DNA from: Dehalococcoidia bacterium
GTDB taxonomy: Bacteria; Chloroflexota; Dehalococcoidia; Lucifugimonadales; UBA826
NCBI GenBank assembly: GCA_029936675.1
Contig: JAPYSB010000005.1
Span: forward strand, 76,104 to 140,103
DNA: 64,000 bases
Reading direction: 5' to 3'
This document shows positions 6,821-30,153 of this stretch, piece by piece. The notes under the pieces are model-generated. The model did not search any database. It saw only the letters and a list, made by a program, of their open reading frames with translations, and was not told the DNA's origin. Each line of letters begins with the position of its first letter. The first letter of the stretch is position 1. The position numbers and the translations under genes are program-made.

Positions 6821-6963
6821 ACCTTGGGATCGTGAAGTTTTTTTTGGCCAATCGCATCCATCATTCCTTTGAAAATGAAGGTATGTAGTGGGAAACCGGT
6901 ACCAATAACCGGTAATGTACTCTTGGACCATTCGATATTTGCTTAAAACTGTCGGACTAAAGC

Positions 6964-7140
6964 CTACCTCTTGGCGTACCTTGTAATCTCTAGTGTTTTC
7001 ACTTCACTTATTTGATCGGAAATTAAGTTTTGATCAACGCCTAAGTCTAAAAGTATGTTTTTGAAAAGGTCAGGATAGCGGGATTTGTCAGGTTCCCATA
7101 AACCAACCACGTAATTTTTCAGACAGTCAAAAGAAAACAT
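6964..7140 (-). CDS. possible small protein (58 aa), function unknown
   Basis: Below the track's length cut-off: ATG at 7140 reads MFSFDCLKNYVVGLWEPDKSRYPDLFKNILLDLGVDQNLISDQISEVKTLEITRYAKR*; AGGG upstream. Confidence 0.35.
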   Translation of the reverse strand: MFSFDCLKNYVVGLWEPDKSRYPDLFKNILLDLGVDQNLISDQISEVKTLEITRYAKR

Positions 7141-7270
7141 TTCGGATCCCTATCTTGTATATTCCTAAATACTGTTGAATTAAAAATTGCGTTATAATAC
7201 AACTTAATCAAAATAAGTGCGCCAAGATACTCTGTTTTGGGCACTGAGCAAATTCAGAGGAATCTTTTTG

Positions 7271-8731
7271 ATGAATATAATCATCGCTGGTGCCACAGGA
7301 TTTATTGGTAGTGAACTGGTTGCTTTTTTGAAAGGGAGGGGGCATGTCCTCACCGCGCTTGTCCGAGATGTAAGTAGAGCGTCGGAACAACTTGGAACCG
7401 ACGCCAAATTGATTAGTTTTGGAAGCACTGACAAAGAGTTAATAACTGAATTTGAAAACTCTGAGGTAATAGTTAACTTGGTTGGCCGCCCATTGGCTCC
7501 CTCTAGGTGGTCGAAAGCAAAAAAAGAGGAATTTTTTGACAGTCGAGTTGGTGTTACCAAAAGAATGGTGTCAATCATGGGGGAGTGTAAGAATCCACCA
7601 TCTATTTTGGTGTCGGCTAGCGCTGTTGGTTATTACGGAGACCGCTTTGACGAAGAAATCACGGAGGCCTCTAAGAAAGGTGATGGATTCCTAGCTGATC
7701 TTTGCGATTTATGGGAAAAAGCAGCTTTCGAGGCGGAAAATTTTGGGACTAGAGTGTGCACCTTGCGGATTGGTGTGGTTTTAGGAAGGGAAGGTGGGTT
7801 TTTGAAGCAGATGTCATTACCTTTTGAAATGGGTATAGGGACTTACACTGGCAATGGTAATCAATGGGTTCCATGGATTCATTATTTAGATCTTTTAAGG
7901 ATCATAGATCTAGGTATAAATGATGAAAGCATATCTGGACCGATAAATTGCACTTCACCCAAGCCGGTGACGGGTAAAAGTTTTGCAAAATCTTTGGCTT
8001 CTATTCTGGGCGCCAAGATACTTATTGGGTTACCCGCGTTATGTCTCAGGCTTGTTTTTGGAGAGGGAGAAAAAGTATTAACGAGTAGCCAAAAAGCTTA
8101 TCCAAATTTCTTACAGGAAAAAGAATTTCAGTTTGTTCATGAAGATTTAGTACATGCTTTGAATGAGGAATGTTCTCCTAAAGGAGTCAGTATCACCAAA
8201 ATAGATATTCGGGAAATACACTCTGGTAATTCAGCTAAAAATTTGCCTGAACTGTCTCGGGCTCAATACAAAATTGAGACCTCCGTAAAATTGGAGGTAG
8301 ACTCCAAAGTGGCTTTTGAATTTTTTTCCTCTCCTTTTAATTTGGGACTGACTACTCCCAATTGGATGGGATTCTGTATAACTGAATCTTCCCCCGATAT
8401 GGGTGAGGGTTCAGAATTTGAATACAAAATCAATCTTGGGCCTATTCCGATGAAATGGAGAACAAAAATAATTAAATGGGCGCCCGACGATTTATTTGTG
8501 GATTACCAAAAGAAAGGACCATACAGGCTGTGGTGGCACCAGCACCGTATTATTACGGAAGAGGCTTCTACTTGTCGTATGGAAGACAAAGTTCTTTATA
8601 GTATCCCGGGATGGTTTTTAGGTAGGGTAGCTCACAAATACATAATTAAAAGCATCTTAGTAAGGATATTCGCTCACAGAATGAAAGTTATACAAATGCG
8701 TTTTGGGGGTAGTAATTATGACTCGTCGTAA
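7271..8731 (+). CDS. TIGR01777-family SDR (nucleoside-diphosphate-sugar-epimerase-like) with C-terminal SRPBCC-like domain
   Basis: MNIIIAGATGFIGSELVAFLKGRGH; VSASAVGYYGDRFDEEITE; GNGNQWVPWIHYLDLLRII. C-term YKIETSVKLEVDSKVAFEFFSSPFNLGLTTPNWM... is SRPBCC-like. ATG at 7271 preferred over the track start at 7217. Confidence 0.85.
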   Translation: MNIIIAGATGFIGSELVAFLKGRGHVLTALVRDVSRASEQLGTDAKLISFGSTDKELITEFENSEVIVNLVGRPLAPSRWSKAKKEEFFDSRVGVTKRMVSIMGECKNPPSILVSASAVGYYGDRFDEEITEASKKGDGFLADLCDLWEKAAFEAENFGTRVCTLRIGVVLGREGGFLKQMSLPFEMGIGTYTGNGNQWVPWIHYLDLLRIIDLGINDESISGPINCTSPKPVTGKSFAKSLASILGAKILIGLPALCLRLVFGEGEKVLTSSQKAYPNFLQEKEFQFVHEDLVHALNEECSPKGVSITKIDIREIHSGNSAKNLPELSRAQYKIETSVKLEVDSKVAFEFFSSPFNLGLTTPNWMGFCITESSPDMGEGSEFEYKINLGPIPMKWRTKIIKWAPDDLFVDYQKKGPYRLWWHQHRIITEEASTCRMEDKVLYSIPGWFLGRVAHKYIIKSILVRIFAHRMKVIQMRFGGSNYDSS

Positions 8732-9608
8732 TAATGACGATTTTGTTTTATTGAACCGCTTCAGAGGGCGTTTGCTCAACCATTTGACTTCGGTTGATCG
8801 GACTGGAAGTGTCTCGGTGATTGAGGAGGCATTGCGTTATAACTGTACACCAGCTTCTATTTACAATTCAGTTATAACTCCTGCAATGGTGGAACTAGGA
8901 GAGCTATGGCATGGAGGACGAATCACTATTGCCCACGAACATCATGCCAGCCAGATCGTGGACGGTCTTATAAACATGGTGGTCCAAAAATCGCAAAGGT
9001 TCTCGGTTAATGGTCTCCGTGCCTTGGTTACATCTCCTTCTGGTGAAAATCATTGGATTGGGGCAAAAGTTTTCGCTAATTTGCTGTTTCTAGAAGGTTG
9101 GGATGTTGAATATATAGGAGTGGATACCCCGGCGGCAGATCTGGCCAAATATCTTACTGAGATTGAGGTAGATGTTGTTGCGTTGTCTGTAGTTTTACCC
9201 AGTAATATTCTGAGTGTAGAGGATGCTGTTTCAATAATCGAAGCTATGGACAATCCACCTTTTGTGATCTTGGGAGGTCCAGCTTTCAAGGGATTTGTTG
9301 ATGAAATCGGGAAAGCGGCAATTGTGGACAATTTTGCTACGGGGCTGACAGTTTTACAGGATGCTATGGGAATAGGGGCTAGCAACTTATCGTTACAAGA
9401 CACACTTCTAGGTGTAGGTGGAAAAGTTTTGGAGATCCGAAGAACCAAAGGTATGAACCAAGGTGAATTAGCGGTTCTTGCAGGGGTTGATAGGGCTTAC
9501 ATAAGTCTGGTTGAAAACGGTAAACAAAATTTAACGATGGGAGCTTTATTCAAACTGGCGGAAGCCTTGGGAACGTCAGTAAATACGTTAATGGCATCTT
9601 CAAAGTAA
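8718..9608 (+). CDS. B12-binding CarH-like sensor module with C-terminal XRE/Cro-CI HTH (putative cobalamin-dependent regulator)
   Basis: Four-helix-bundle signature GELWHGGRITIAHEHHAS (W-H-x8-E-H), B12-binding GENHWIGAKV (ExHxxG) with downstream SVVLP and LGGPAF, then C-term KVLEIRRTKGMNQGELAVLAGVDRAYISLVENGKQNLTMGALFKLAEALGTSVNTLM. ATG at 8718 overlaps the upstream stop (8731). Confidence 0.85.
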   Translation: MTRRNNDDFVLLNRFRGRLLNHLTSVDRTGSVSVIEEALRYNCTPASIYNSVITPAMVELGELWHGGRITIAHEHHASQIVDGLINMVVQKSQRFSVNGLRALVTSPSGENHWIGAKVFANLLFLEGWDVEYIGVDTPAADLAKYLTEIEVDVVALSVVLPSNILSVEDAVSIIEAMDNPPFVILGGPAFKGFVDEIGKAAIVDNFATGLTVLQDAMGIGASNLSLQDTLLGVGGKVLEIRRTKGMNQGELAVLAGVDRAYISLVENGKQNLTMGALFKLAEALGTSVNTLMASSK

Positions 9609-9696
9609 TCCCGTAAATATATTTCAGTGTGGGTTGAAGAAAACTTAGCTGTGAATCTTTCGGAGAATTGATACTGGTGCACTAATACCAGAAGAG

Positions 9697-9929
9697 GTGT
9701 GTGTGTTTACCTCGCTTCTTAATTGGGCTGTTTCTTGTTTTATGTTGGGTGTGACCTGGTTGATTTATGTTGTTTTTTTACCCGTTATATTCATATGTAA
9801 ATCCTAACGATTTTAAGGAACATAATTCTGCCTATGGAGAAAATTTCCCCTATGGTGCCACCTGTTATGACTATTGAAGTCGTAATAGCTTTAGGCGGTT
9901 ACTTTAAATCCCAAGGGAATCAGGGGTAG
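9697..9929 (+). pseudogene. frameshifted remnant of a small membrane protein
   Basis: Consecutive frames give VCVFTSLLNWAVSCFMLGVTWLIYVVFL / PLYSYVNPNDFKEHNSAYGEN / KISPMVPPVMTIEVVIALGGYFKSQGNQG*; needs two frameshifts. Confidence 0.5.
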
Positions 9930-10116
9930 TATTAGCCATTAATTTGCCTCTGGTGAGGCTGGTTTGTATGTAGACAATATTGTTCAAATTTCTTACCATC
10001 GGAGTTTGGAATTTCCAGTAACCCAAATTCCATACACAAAAATTTTAATTAGCACCAATTAAATAAGAATTGTTCTACGAACTTTGAGGACCTTTTGGGA
10101 ACTATGGGTTATGATC

Positions 10117-10692
10117 TCATTGGTGGGGATCTAACCCCCTGTATTGGAATTGAAATTTAACTAACACAGCGCCAGCCAAGATAATTACAGTAGTTGTGGC
10201 GATCAAATCGAAACGTATTAGCCATCCTGCAATTATTGTGGATACAAAGGCGAAAACACCAGCGTATGCTGGCCTTCTTGTAATTATTAATATCAAGAAA
10301 GAAGGTAAAACTGCTATCAAAGCACCGACTGGAAGGAGAACAATTCCGGCTCCCATAGTGGTGGCCATCCCAACCCCACCTGGTTTCCCCCATGGTTTTA
10401 TAACCATATGGCCTATAAGGAAAAAGATGATTCCGATGGTTGCAATCCACGTTGGGTATCCTAAAAGGATAACAGGGAGAGTGATTAATAAACCTTTGAC
10501 TATATCAATAAAAAAAACTGAGATTCCATATATTGGCCCGATCTTTGCATAAATATTTGAGGCTCCAGGGTTACCTGTTCCTATGGAACGGATATCGACA
10601 TTTTTAAATTTTGATATCAGATCGCCGACGGAAATGGTTCCTATGAAGTAAGATGCGAGTCCCCATATGGTTGATAGGATGATGTAGTTCAA
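10117..10692 (-). CDS. plsY: glycerol-3-phosphate acyltransferase PlsY
   Basis: Multi-TM with IGTGNPGASNIYAKIGPIYG and IGHMVIKPWGKPGGVGMATTMG motifs. Confidence 0.88.
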   Translation of the reverse strand: MNYIILSTIWGLASYFIGTISVGDLISKFKNVDIRSIGTGNPGASNIYAKIGPIYGISVFFIDIVKGLLITLPVILLGYPTWIATIGIIFFLIGHMVIKPWGKPGGVGMATTMGAGIVLLPVGALIAVLPSFLILIITRRPAYAGVFAFVSTIIAGWLIRFDLIATTTVIILAGAVLVKFQFQYRGLDPHQ

Positions 10693-11210: not shown

Positions 11211-11603
11211 TTGATTATGCCACTAGCTAATGGAGATAAAATACCTTATACATTCTTCCCAGGAACTTTCACAAATTCATCCGCCAAAGAATTATGCCAA
11301 CTCGATGGGGTTACGGATAAATTCAATAGGATTGACGTTAAAATGATTGGAATTTCATGTGATTCGCCTTTTCTGAAAACACGGGCACCCCAAATTACAT
11401 TGACTTCACCTTAATAATTGATCACAACCTGGATTGCATTGATGCTTTTGTGGTCATTTGTAGGCCTGTCAAGAATGGAAGGTTATAAGAGTGCAAACCG
11501 TGCGGTGTTCATTTTAGCTGAAGACGGAACCATTATTTCCAGTTGGATAGGAGAGCATCTAGTGATGGTTCCAGTTCATGGCCTTATCCTTCGCCATATT
11601 TAA
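11211..11603 (+). pseudogene. decayed peroxiredoxin (AhpC/TSA family)
   Basis: Split pieces: FFPGTFTNSSAKELCQLDGVTDKFNRIDVKMIGISCDSPF ... GYKSANRAVFILAEDGTIISSWIGEH; internal stops; peroxidatic Cys position reads Ser. Confidence 0.75.
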
Positions 11604-28018: not shown

Positions 28019-30153
28019 GAATTATGATCCGGGTAAGTTTTCTCTGTTGTGAATCGGAATAACTTCCCTGTTGCTCCAATCCAGGTGCCATCTGAAACAT
28101 ATGCTGATCCGACCAATGGGTGATTGTTTACTCTAATCGTATGTGCAGCAGTTGTTGCCGTTATCAAAAGAGAGCCTTTTCCGAAGACGAAATTGCTTCC
28201 AATAAACTCATCCATTCCAGATTCTGAGCCCGCGACTATATGCCGGGCAAAAATTGACCTAATTACCCTCCTGCTCCGTAATCGGTCGAAGTTTAGAATT
28301 GAGTTTCCCGACTCATCACTAATGAATCCATACGGCTTCGGCAGGGAATTGTGATATATCACAATTATTAATAGTATTATGATTAGAATGGCTACAGGAA
28401 TTATGATTCCTAATGGCATGCTGGTTTTCGAAGTGTTTGTACTTGGGGGAAGGGTATTCGGTTCCGGCTGATAAGGCACATTGGAATATGGTTGTGCTGG
28501 GGCTTGAGGGATCACCCTTGATTCCAAAAACAAATTTCCTGTTGATCGCGAATAATCTCTATCGCCATAGACTAAATCGACATTAAATATAGCTGAAATT
28601 TGGCCTGGCTTATCCGGTGTGAAAACCACATCATACATCCAGGCTTTACCCTCGGAATCAGGCGATCGGGGATTGGTTTTCAAGGTTCCGTGGAATTGTA
28701 AATCGTTAACGATTTGGGGTGTGATGGCGGATGGTAAAACAGCATAAGGGGAATCTTTAATTTTTGTGTATATTGTTGCTACTGTATATTCTTCACCAAC
28801 GAATAGATTAGAGGTGTAAAGTGGGTCCATCTCAATTGTTGGAAATACGTCGGCCTGAAAAGTGAAATCTCGAGTCAGATTGTATTTAATATTCGGCCAG
28901 CCTAAATGGACTGACACCGAATATTTTCCCTCTGATAGAGGTGCAGGAATCTTCGCTGAGTAATACCCGTCACCGGATTTTAAATCACCATCAACTCCCT
29001 TGTCTTTCAATACATATGTTATGGAGGTTTCACCTGGGGAGACAACATCAGCACTGATAGACGCATCCTCGCCCATTATCGATATAGATTGGGCTTCCGT
29101 GACAAAAGCGGAAATAGTAGCTGCTTCATCTGTCGGTACCACTTTCGGCATTTGAAAGTTCAGCCCATATTTATTCGATGCTAAATACCATGAGGATACA
29201 AGGCCACTTAATCCTGTCACATCGACATTCCAATTGCCGGGGGCAGGATCATTAATTATCCATACCACAGCATTAGGAGTTTCAAGTACGGAAGAAGAGG
29301 ACCTGTCACCTGTGGAAGCTTCGAGGCCATCGGGGTTTTTAAGCCTAAAGGAACCAGCGTTTCTTTCTCTGAAGAACAAAGCCATCACATATTCAGTACC
29401 AGGTAAAACCGCTATATCTGAGATTAGTAGATTGCTAAAAGTCAGCTTCTTTTCTCCAGAGGAAATTAATGTTCCTCGGTTATCGGTTGTTAATAAGTAA
29501 TCTGTAAATAATTTCAATCCTCCAATATCTTGCAATTGGAATATGTTTCCCTCAGAAGTAGCCGCAAGATTAGTGGATACTTCTAAATTGGACGCCGGAA
29601 TTCCTGACAACACGAAAGCAGATATATGCCAGCCCCTTTCATAAAAAAGACCGGCTAAAGGGTCCAACCTATGGCCCACATAATCTTCATGGTTTGGATA
29701 TTCGTTAGTACTGATGAGATATATTCCTGACCCTGGAGGGGCACTTTCTATATCTAATAGGCCGTAAGATTCTCCAAGTATCTGATCGACTGCTACGCCC
29801 AAAGAGGAATTGGCTTCGGAATTTGAAATTATGTCCTGCACTTTTTTAGGAAACTCTATGAAATCACTTTCCCCAGCCCTATAAGGCCCAATGTAACTGG
29901 CGGGTGAGTCCATTGTCATCAGATAGAAATCATCACCTTGTTTTATTGTCGACATGATTCCAATTATTGAATCCACCATTTCCATATGGGATTCTTTGGA
30001 AACCACAGAATTCGAGTCTATTCCAAGTATTACTATTCGATGGTCTGATTGAGCATTTTGATCGGCGGATATTTGTATTATGCCGTTGAGGGAGGCGAAC
30101 ACAGAGGCAATAAGAACGATACAGCTGAAGACGATCTTACTTGGTGTATTCAT
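28015..30153 (-). CDS. secreted VWA-like protein with Ig-like region, TM helix and degenerate FHA-like cytoplasmic tail
   Basis: N-term signal, HRIVILGIDSNSVVSKESHMEMVDSIIGIMSTIKQGDDFYLMTMDS; TM SMPLGIIIPVAILIIILLIIVIY; tail IRVNNHPLVGSAYVSDGTWIGATGKLFRFT. Confidence 0.65.
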   Translation of the reverse strand: MNTPSKIVFSCIVLIASVFASLNGIIQISADQNAQSDHRIVILGIDSNSVVSKESHMEMVDSIIGIMSTIKQGDDFYLMTMDSPASYIGPYRAGESDFIEFPKKVQDIISNSEANSSLGVAVDQILGESYGLLDIESAPPGSGIYLISTNEYPNHEDYVGHRLDPLAGLFYERGWHISAFVLSGIPASNLEVSTNLAATSEGNIFQLQDIGGLKLFTDYLLTTDNRGTLISSGEKKLTFSNLLISDIAVLPGTEYVMALFFRERNAGSFRLKNPDGLEASTGDRSSSSVLETPNAVVWIINDPAPGNWNVDVTGLSGLVSSWYLASNKYGLNFQMPKVVPTDEAATISAFVTEAQSISIMGEDASISADVVSPGETSITYVLKDKGVDGDLKSGDGYYSAKIPAPLSEGKYSVSVHLGWPNIKYNLTRDFTFQADVFPTIEMDPLYTSNLFVGEEYTVATIYTKIKDSPYAVLPSAITPQIVNDLQFHGTLKTNPRSPDSEGKAWMYDVVFTPDKPGQISAIFNVDLVYGDRDYSRSTGNLFLESRVIPQAPAQPYSNVPYQPEPNTLPPSTNTSKTSMPLGIIIPVAILIIILLIIVIYHNSLPKPYGFISDESGNSILNFDRLRSRRVIRSIFARHIVAGSESGMDEFIGSNFVFGKGSLLITATTAAHTIRVNNHPLVGSAYVSDGTWIGATGKLFRFTTEKTYPDHNS

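Follow-up and report, generated by a model that had tools for sequence, protein, structure and literature searches.

A gene in a 64,000-nucleotide stretch of the genome of a marine SAR202 bacterium (Dehalococcoidia; contig JAPYSB010000005.1, positions 76,104 to 140,103; here called the window) encodes a protein in which a CarH-type B12 sensor module (CBD) is followed by a C-terminal Cro/CI helix-turn-helix (HTH) (Table 1). Judging from its sequence and those of its relatives, we estimate at roughly 70% the probability that it is an adenosylcobalamin (AdoCbl)-based light-responsive transcriptional regulator, a dark repressor released by light. Because the relatives lie beside light-damage-protection genes and have a predicted target site in common, the family probably represents an uncharacterised kind of B12-based light switch.

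Table 1. Regulator, predicted operator and neighbouring features in the window
Feature	Position	Strand	Details
Frameshifted remnant of u361 of the divergent operon	6893..7149	-	Identity 57% in one frame, 51% in another
Predicted operator TTGCGTTATAATACAA	7187..7202	+	Overlaps TATAAT -10-like element of the regulator's operon
Co-operonic TIGR01777 SDR gene with C-terminal SRPBCC-like part	7274..8731 (alternative start GTG 7217)	+	Gene order same in SAR202 relatives
CBD-HTH_3 regulator gene	8718..9608	+	ATG start, 296 aa; B12-binding_2 (4-helix), B12-binding (Rossmann), C-terminal Cro/CI HTH
GxxW...EH signature	8898..8942	+	G61, W64, H65, E74, H75 = CarH G128, W131, H132, E141, H142 (TtCarH alignment)
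GENHWIG cobalamin motif	9042..9062	+	Axial His H112 = CarH H177 (alignment); His invariant in 34 members
GxxxP signature element	9117..9131	+	G134-P138 = CarH G199, P203 (alignment; element from PMC11796333)
HTH_3 domain (residues 239-289) of regulator	9432..9584	+	Joined to CBD by low-confidence linker, residues ~221-223 (AlphaFold model)
Remnant of a decayed membrane gene (~150 aa; next after the regulator in relatives)	9685..10128	+	32% identity over 161 aa, broken
Redoxin (AhpC/TSA) remnant	11232..11600	+	Internal stops; intact in L049

The initial annotation had read the protein as a CarH-type sensor with an XRE HTH at its C terminus and no MerR domain, and all three elements were borne out. 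Pfam matched B12-binding_2 at residues 18-85 (1.6e-12), B12-binding at residues 101-196 (3.4e-14), and HTH_3 at residues 239-289 (2.8e-12; 46.9 bits against a gathering score of 23), and found no MerR domain in this product or in any of the 34 family members, whereas TtCarH itself gave a MerR_1 match. With only 17 residues before the CBD match and HTH_3 after it, the protein is also without a bilin-binding globin-like domain. The NCBIfam CarH model matched the CBD only (6e-22, 78.1 bits), far under its equivalog cut-off of 400. The fold check named in that annotation recovered a cobalamin-binding fold: the best PDB matches of the AF2 model (pLDDT 89.5, pTM 0.72) were all B12 photoreceptors, namely, the photocobilins 8j2w and 8j2y, CtMerR (8jbs, TMt 0.81), and TtCarH (8c31, TMt up to 0.79). 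Given the CarH-model match over the CBD and the presence of all three Pfam domains in 34 of 34 aligned members, the assignment is not due to chance.

All five CarH photochemistry residues are matched in the regulator (W131/W64, H132/H65, E141/E74, H142/H75, and H177/H112), as had been claimed. In addition, G109 aligns with TtCarH G174, and the GxxW/EH/GxxH/GxxxP signature is complete (G61-W64, E74-H75, G109-H112, G134-P138); Yu et al. 2024 used this signature (SignatureFinder, PMC11796333) to find, and partly verify, light-responsive CBDs. The tryptophan lies 48 residues from the axial His, compared with 46 in CarH, within the two or so residues first stated. The codon positions given for W64 (8907), H65 (8910), E74 (8937), H75 (8940), and H112 (9051) were also correct, while the range of the GELWHGG segment, GELWHGGRITIAHEHHAS, had to be moved by three bases, from 8901-8954 to 8898-8951. 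In the family alignment the tryptophan, E141, H142, and H177 (CarH numbering) are invariant in 34 of 34 members. H132, which is important for disassembly of the CarH tetramer (PMC10442372), is present in 29 and missing in five; L036/L062 carries Leu in its place. Some verified B12 photoreceptors also lack H132 (PMC11796333). One relative, L077, lacks the Wx9EH motif.

Across 399 genomes from the phylum of the window organism, a protein search returned 11 full-length homologues (30-38% identity). Scanning 85,462 species genomes brought up 36 (L047-L082), a set that overlaps with the first and in which every member keeps the C-terminal HTH; the architecture search proposed earlier, for a CBD with C-terminal HTH_3 and no MerR, thus found it in 36 other loci. 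All three Pfam domains matched in each of the 34 aligned members, which include the window regulator. Hosts are mostly SAR202, Dehalococcoidia, and other Chloroflexota MAGs; the architecture also occurs in one MAG each under the labels Planctomycetota, delta-proteobacterium, and Thermoanaerobaculia, though such contig labels do not prove origin. The Thermoanaerobaculia MAG has, close to the cobalamin-binding regulator, a second ORF similar to it (L082:9621-10682). Viral contigs yielded no relative, and plasmids yielded CBD-only matches and no full-length one. In a midpoint-rooted CBD tree with a small outgroup sample (three MerR-CarH rows), all 34 members form one clade (support 97/96), sister to MerR-CarH including TtCarH (95/88), with photocobilin-like proteins on another branch. 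Within this tree sample, the CBD-HTH_3 architecture arose once.

The strongest functional clue, by association, is the company that the family keeps. The stop of the SDR-SRPBCC gene overlaps the regulator ATG by 14 nt; since this gene ends inside the regulator start region, the pair is probably cotranscribed and translationally coupled. Eight SAR202-type loci (L049, L050, L051, L053-L056, and L081) have this pair together with a divergent operon of a membrane gene, u361, two CFA-synthase-like genes (CMAS), and an FAD amine oxidase gene, plus DUF1365 in all except the truncated L051; in L056 and L081 it also includes a pyrimidine-dimer glycosylase (Pyr_excise). The divergent operons of L036/L062, L044, and L073 contain DNA photolyase, DUF1365, FAD oxidase, SDR, and SRPBCC genes, and in L058 a photolyase gene lies downstream. 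In one set of Chloroflexota loci (L035-L043, L063-L066, L068, L069, and L071), the gene divergent from the regulator encodes a fasciclin lipoprotein. A single SAR202 genome (G403) has a bacteriorhodopsin-family gene (L137:11823-12503) on the strand of the divergent photoprotection operon, between DUF1365 and an NAD_binding_10-DUF2867 gene. No marker was recognised within range of several distant members. The 22 control windows, most of which come from these same genomes, gave only two weak generic SDR matches and none of the non-SDR photoprotection markers.

These neighbours belong to gene families of a known photo-oxidative regulon. The singlet-oxygen RpoE regulon of R. sphaeroides includes photolyase, CFA synthase, UfaO (DUF1365), SDR, and fasciclin genes (PMC7074977 Table 1, PMC7380195), the fasciclin RSP_1409 being strongly induced by singlet oxygen (PMC7074977); in Pseudomonas, LitR homologues govern the light induction of photolyase and UfaM, whose cluster also includes SDR and FAD-oxidoreductase genes (PMC9758184). 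Three conserved families without Pfam matches lie beside the regulator in SAR202: u361 (L049:5772-6854, minus strand), mem176 (L049:6892-7419, minus strand), and mem150 (L049:9968-10417, plus strand). They are candidates for new photoprotection proteins.

The same neighbourhoods bear on two other readings of the sensor. It might report B12 availability, with AdoCbl as a corepressor whose level, rather than light, is read. The window genome encodes a PduO-type adenosyltransferase, which makes AdoCbl from cobalamin, and the C-terminal domain of an AdoCbl-dependent type of methylmalonyl-CoA mutase (MCM), and any CarH-type protein needs AdoCbl too; nevertheless, the neighbours are light-damage genes, no B12 synthesis, transport, or B12-dependent gene was recognised among them in any relative, and the positions that surround the adenosyl group show strict conservation, so that we hold an AdoCbl-level sensor to be improbable. 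The AdoCbl supply indicated by the adenosyltransferase and the MCM domain equally suits the light-responsive reading. Far less probable still is a nonphotosensory corrinoid protein of the methyltransferase type with an incidental HTH, the outcome against which the initial annotation had set its proposal. Corrinoid methyltransferase-type profiles (MtbC/MtgC/MetH) do match the regulator, weakly and far under their cut-offs, but its top sequence and fold matches are photoreceptors, the HTH is present in 34 of 34 members, no methyltransferase partner gene was recognised at the family loci, and a separate corrinoid protein with its own partners is encoded elsewhere in the window genome. We rejected the methyl-carrier role on fold, tree, and context; these, with the photoprotection neighbours and the predicted operator, make a light-sensing regulator more likely than a metabolic corrinoid protein.

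A palindrome-constrained motif search of SAR202 upstream regions gave TTGTatTATAatACAA, whose match in the window, TTGCGTTATAATACAA, lies within the region 7141-7270 proposed earlier for EMSA. This predicted operator is unique in the 2.19-Mb window genome (G000) at ≤1 mismatch, at the regulator's promoter. It has its sole site at the regulator's operon in five of eight sister genomes as well, whereas G400 has two sites; the second strict match there, upstream of a Zn-ribbon gene, was dropped for one mismatch in its centre. The strict operator is absent from the SAR202 relatives G405 and G406, both of which have ATGTACTATAATACAT instead. A reversed-pattern control gave one match, in one of nine genomes. 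Photolyase genes elsewhere in G400, G402, and G403 were considered as targets and discarded, as no operator lies upstream of them within three mismatches.

Diverse homologues gave the motif TGTntAaTATAtTanACA, often ∼50 bp upstream of the regulator, with an LLR of 78, compared with 30.3 ± 2.4 (maximum, 35.8) for 25 control sets built from the sequences upstream of other genes at these loci; the same motif shape emerged when the palindrome constraint was dropped. TGT, TATA, and ACA are common to the SAR202 and distant motifs, with different spacing. Shuffled controls are unfair for the SAR202 and fasciclin/photolyase sets because their upstream regions are partly orthologous; hence, the operator argument rests on the distant set, for which real upstream regions served as controls. 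Promoters were no more numerous in a sigma-70 consensus scan than in shuffles, and we therefore do not count that scan as evidence. Elsewhere in the window, at 28349-28364, a perfect palindrome, TTGTGATATATCACAA, lies two mismatches from the operator consensus and may be the site of another regulator or a chance occurrence.

Because the predicted operator lies over a TATAAT-like -10 element in the window, repression is the favoured sign of regulation. HTH_3 proteins can act as activators, which lends something to a light-dependent activator, or else a repressor whose binding improves after light. Both the position of the operator and the precedent of LitR, a dark repressor with the same type of sensor (PMC9758184), make such a reversal unlikely. 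We infer instead that the regulator binds AdoCbl, responds to light with a change of oligomeric state, and represses; the best reading is of a local repressor that depends on AdoCbl and is released by light. AdoCbl would sit in the CarH-type module in the dark, with His112 below and the adenosyl group against Trp64 and Glu74, and the assembled protein would place paired C-terminal Cro/CI HTHs on the palindrome TTGTRYTATARYACAA over the -10 of its own operon. In relatives, it would bind between the regulator operon and a divergent photoprotection operon, and both would be repressed in the dark. Illumination would break the Co-C bond, cobalt would be ligated from above by His65 (bis-His), and once the assembly had changed or come apart the genes would be derepressed.

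In the window lineage itself the regulated set may have shrunk. The remnants of u361 and of the membrane gene (Table 1) show that the CFA-synthase/DUF1365 photoprotection operon and the flanking membrane gene were lost while the regulator was kept. Photolyase, DUF1365, Pyr_excise, and rhodopsin genes are absent from the window genome (96% complete) and likewise from that of the near relative L047. With the divergent operon decayed and these markers missing, the present output may be just the SDR-SRPBCC gene and the regulator. It is therefore possible, though we doubt it, that in this lineage a family photosensor is a leftover or has been repurposed, controlling only its own SDR-SRPBCC operon, perhaps through AdoCbl level or other cues. 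Against that, the regulator's dN/dS is 0.10-0.17 relative to L047 and L048, in the CBD and the HTH alike, so that it is still under purifying selection; its signature is complete, and its predicted operator is retained. We found no MerR-CarH among the four B12-binding domains of the window genome. A leftover role is compatible with the photosensor reading of the family and questions the window lineage alone; our estimates for the alternatives do not exclude the main one.

At the level of the family, and with somewhat less confidence, we think it probable that these proteins form a distinct, hitherto uncharacterised B12 photoreceptor class. In SAR202 and related bacteria, a CarH-type sensor would act through a C-terminal Cro/CI HTH, bound to a palindromic operator, to switch a photoprotection operon of the furan/cyclopropane-lipid, photolyase, or fasciclin type, with an assembly unlike the CarH tetramer. 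If so, the CarH light switch can operate through an unrelated DNA-binding domain placed at the other terminus. This would inform the question of how output is coupled to B12 photochemistry, and it would provide a simple green-light gene switch whose palindromic operator is short. Cultured SAR202 strains are inhibited by light (PMC10444878), and SAR202 would gain a candidate light sensor besides heliorhodopsin. Text searches of the open-access literature, which takes in only a minority of subscription papers and bioRxiv preprints, turned up no account of a B12 photoreceptor of the Cro/CI type, of an operator for one, or of its occurrence in SAR202.

The sensor type itself is already known. CarH and class I LitR (Thermus TtCarH, B. 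megaterium LitR) share with the regulator a CBD with W131, H132, E141, H142, and H177, and the TtCarH locus, like the family loci, has photolyase and SDR genes nearby; unlike them, the regulator has no N-terminal MerR domain, a C-terminal Cro/CI HTH, a predicted palindromic operator, and a separate CBD clade. Yu et al. 2024 (PMC11796333) described light-responsive CBD fusions, CtMerR among them, that have the full GxxW/EH/GxxH/GxxxP signature in common with it. That survey already mentions CBD-HTH fusions at both the N and the C terminus, and the architecture is accordingly less unprecedented than the initial annotation held, even though the absence of MerR and the C-terminal XRE HTH stand. 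The survey characterises no member with a C-terminal HTH, and the passages of its main text on these fusions name no Cro/CI family, taxon, operon, or operator. Photocobilins, the closest PDB folds, carry a bilin-binding globin-like domain that the regulator lacks, and photocobilin-like CBDs fall on a different tree branch. The RpoE-ChrR and class II LitR regulons resemble the family loci in their photolyase, CFA/UfaM, UfaO (DUF1365), SDR, and fasciclin genes; they are controlled by an ECF sigma/anti-sigma pair or by a B12-less LitR with LOV, whereas here a B12 sensor joined to a Cro/CI HTH would take that part.
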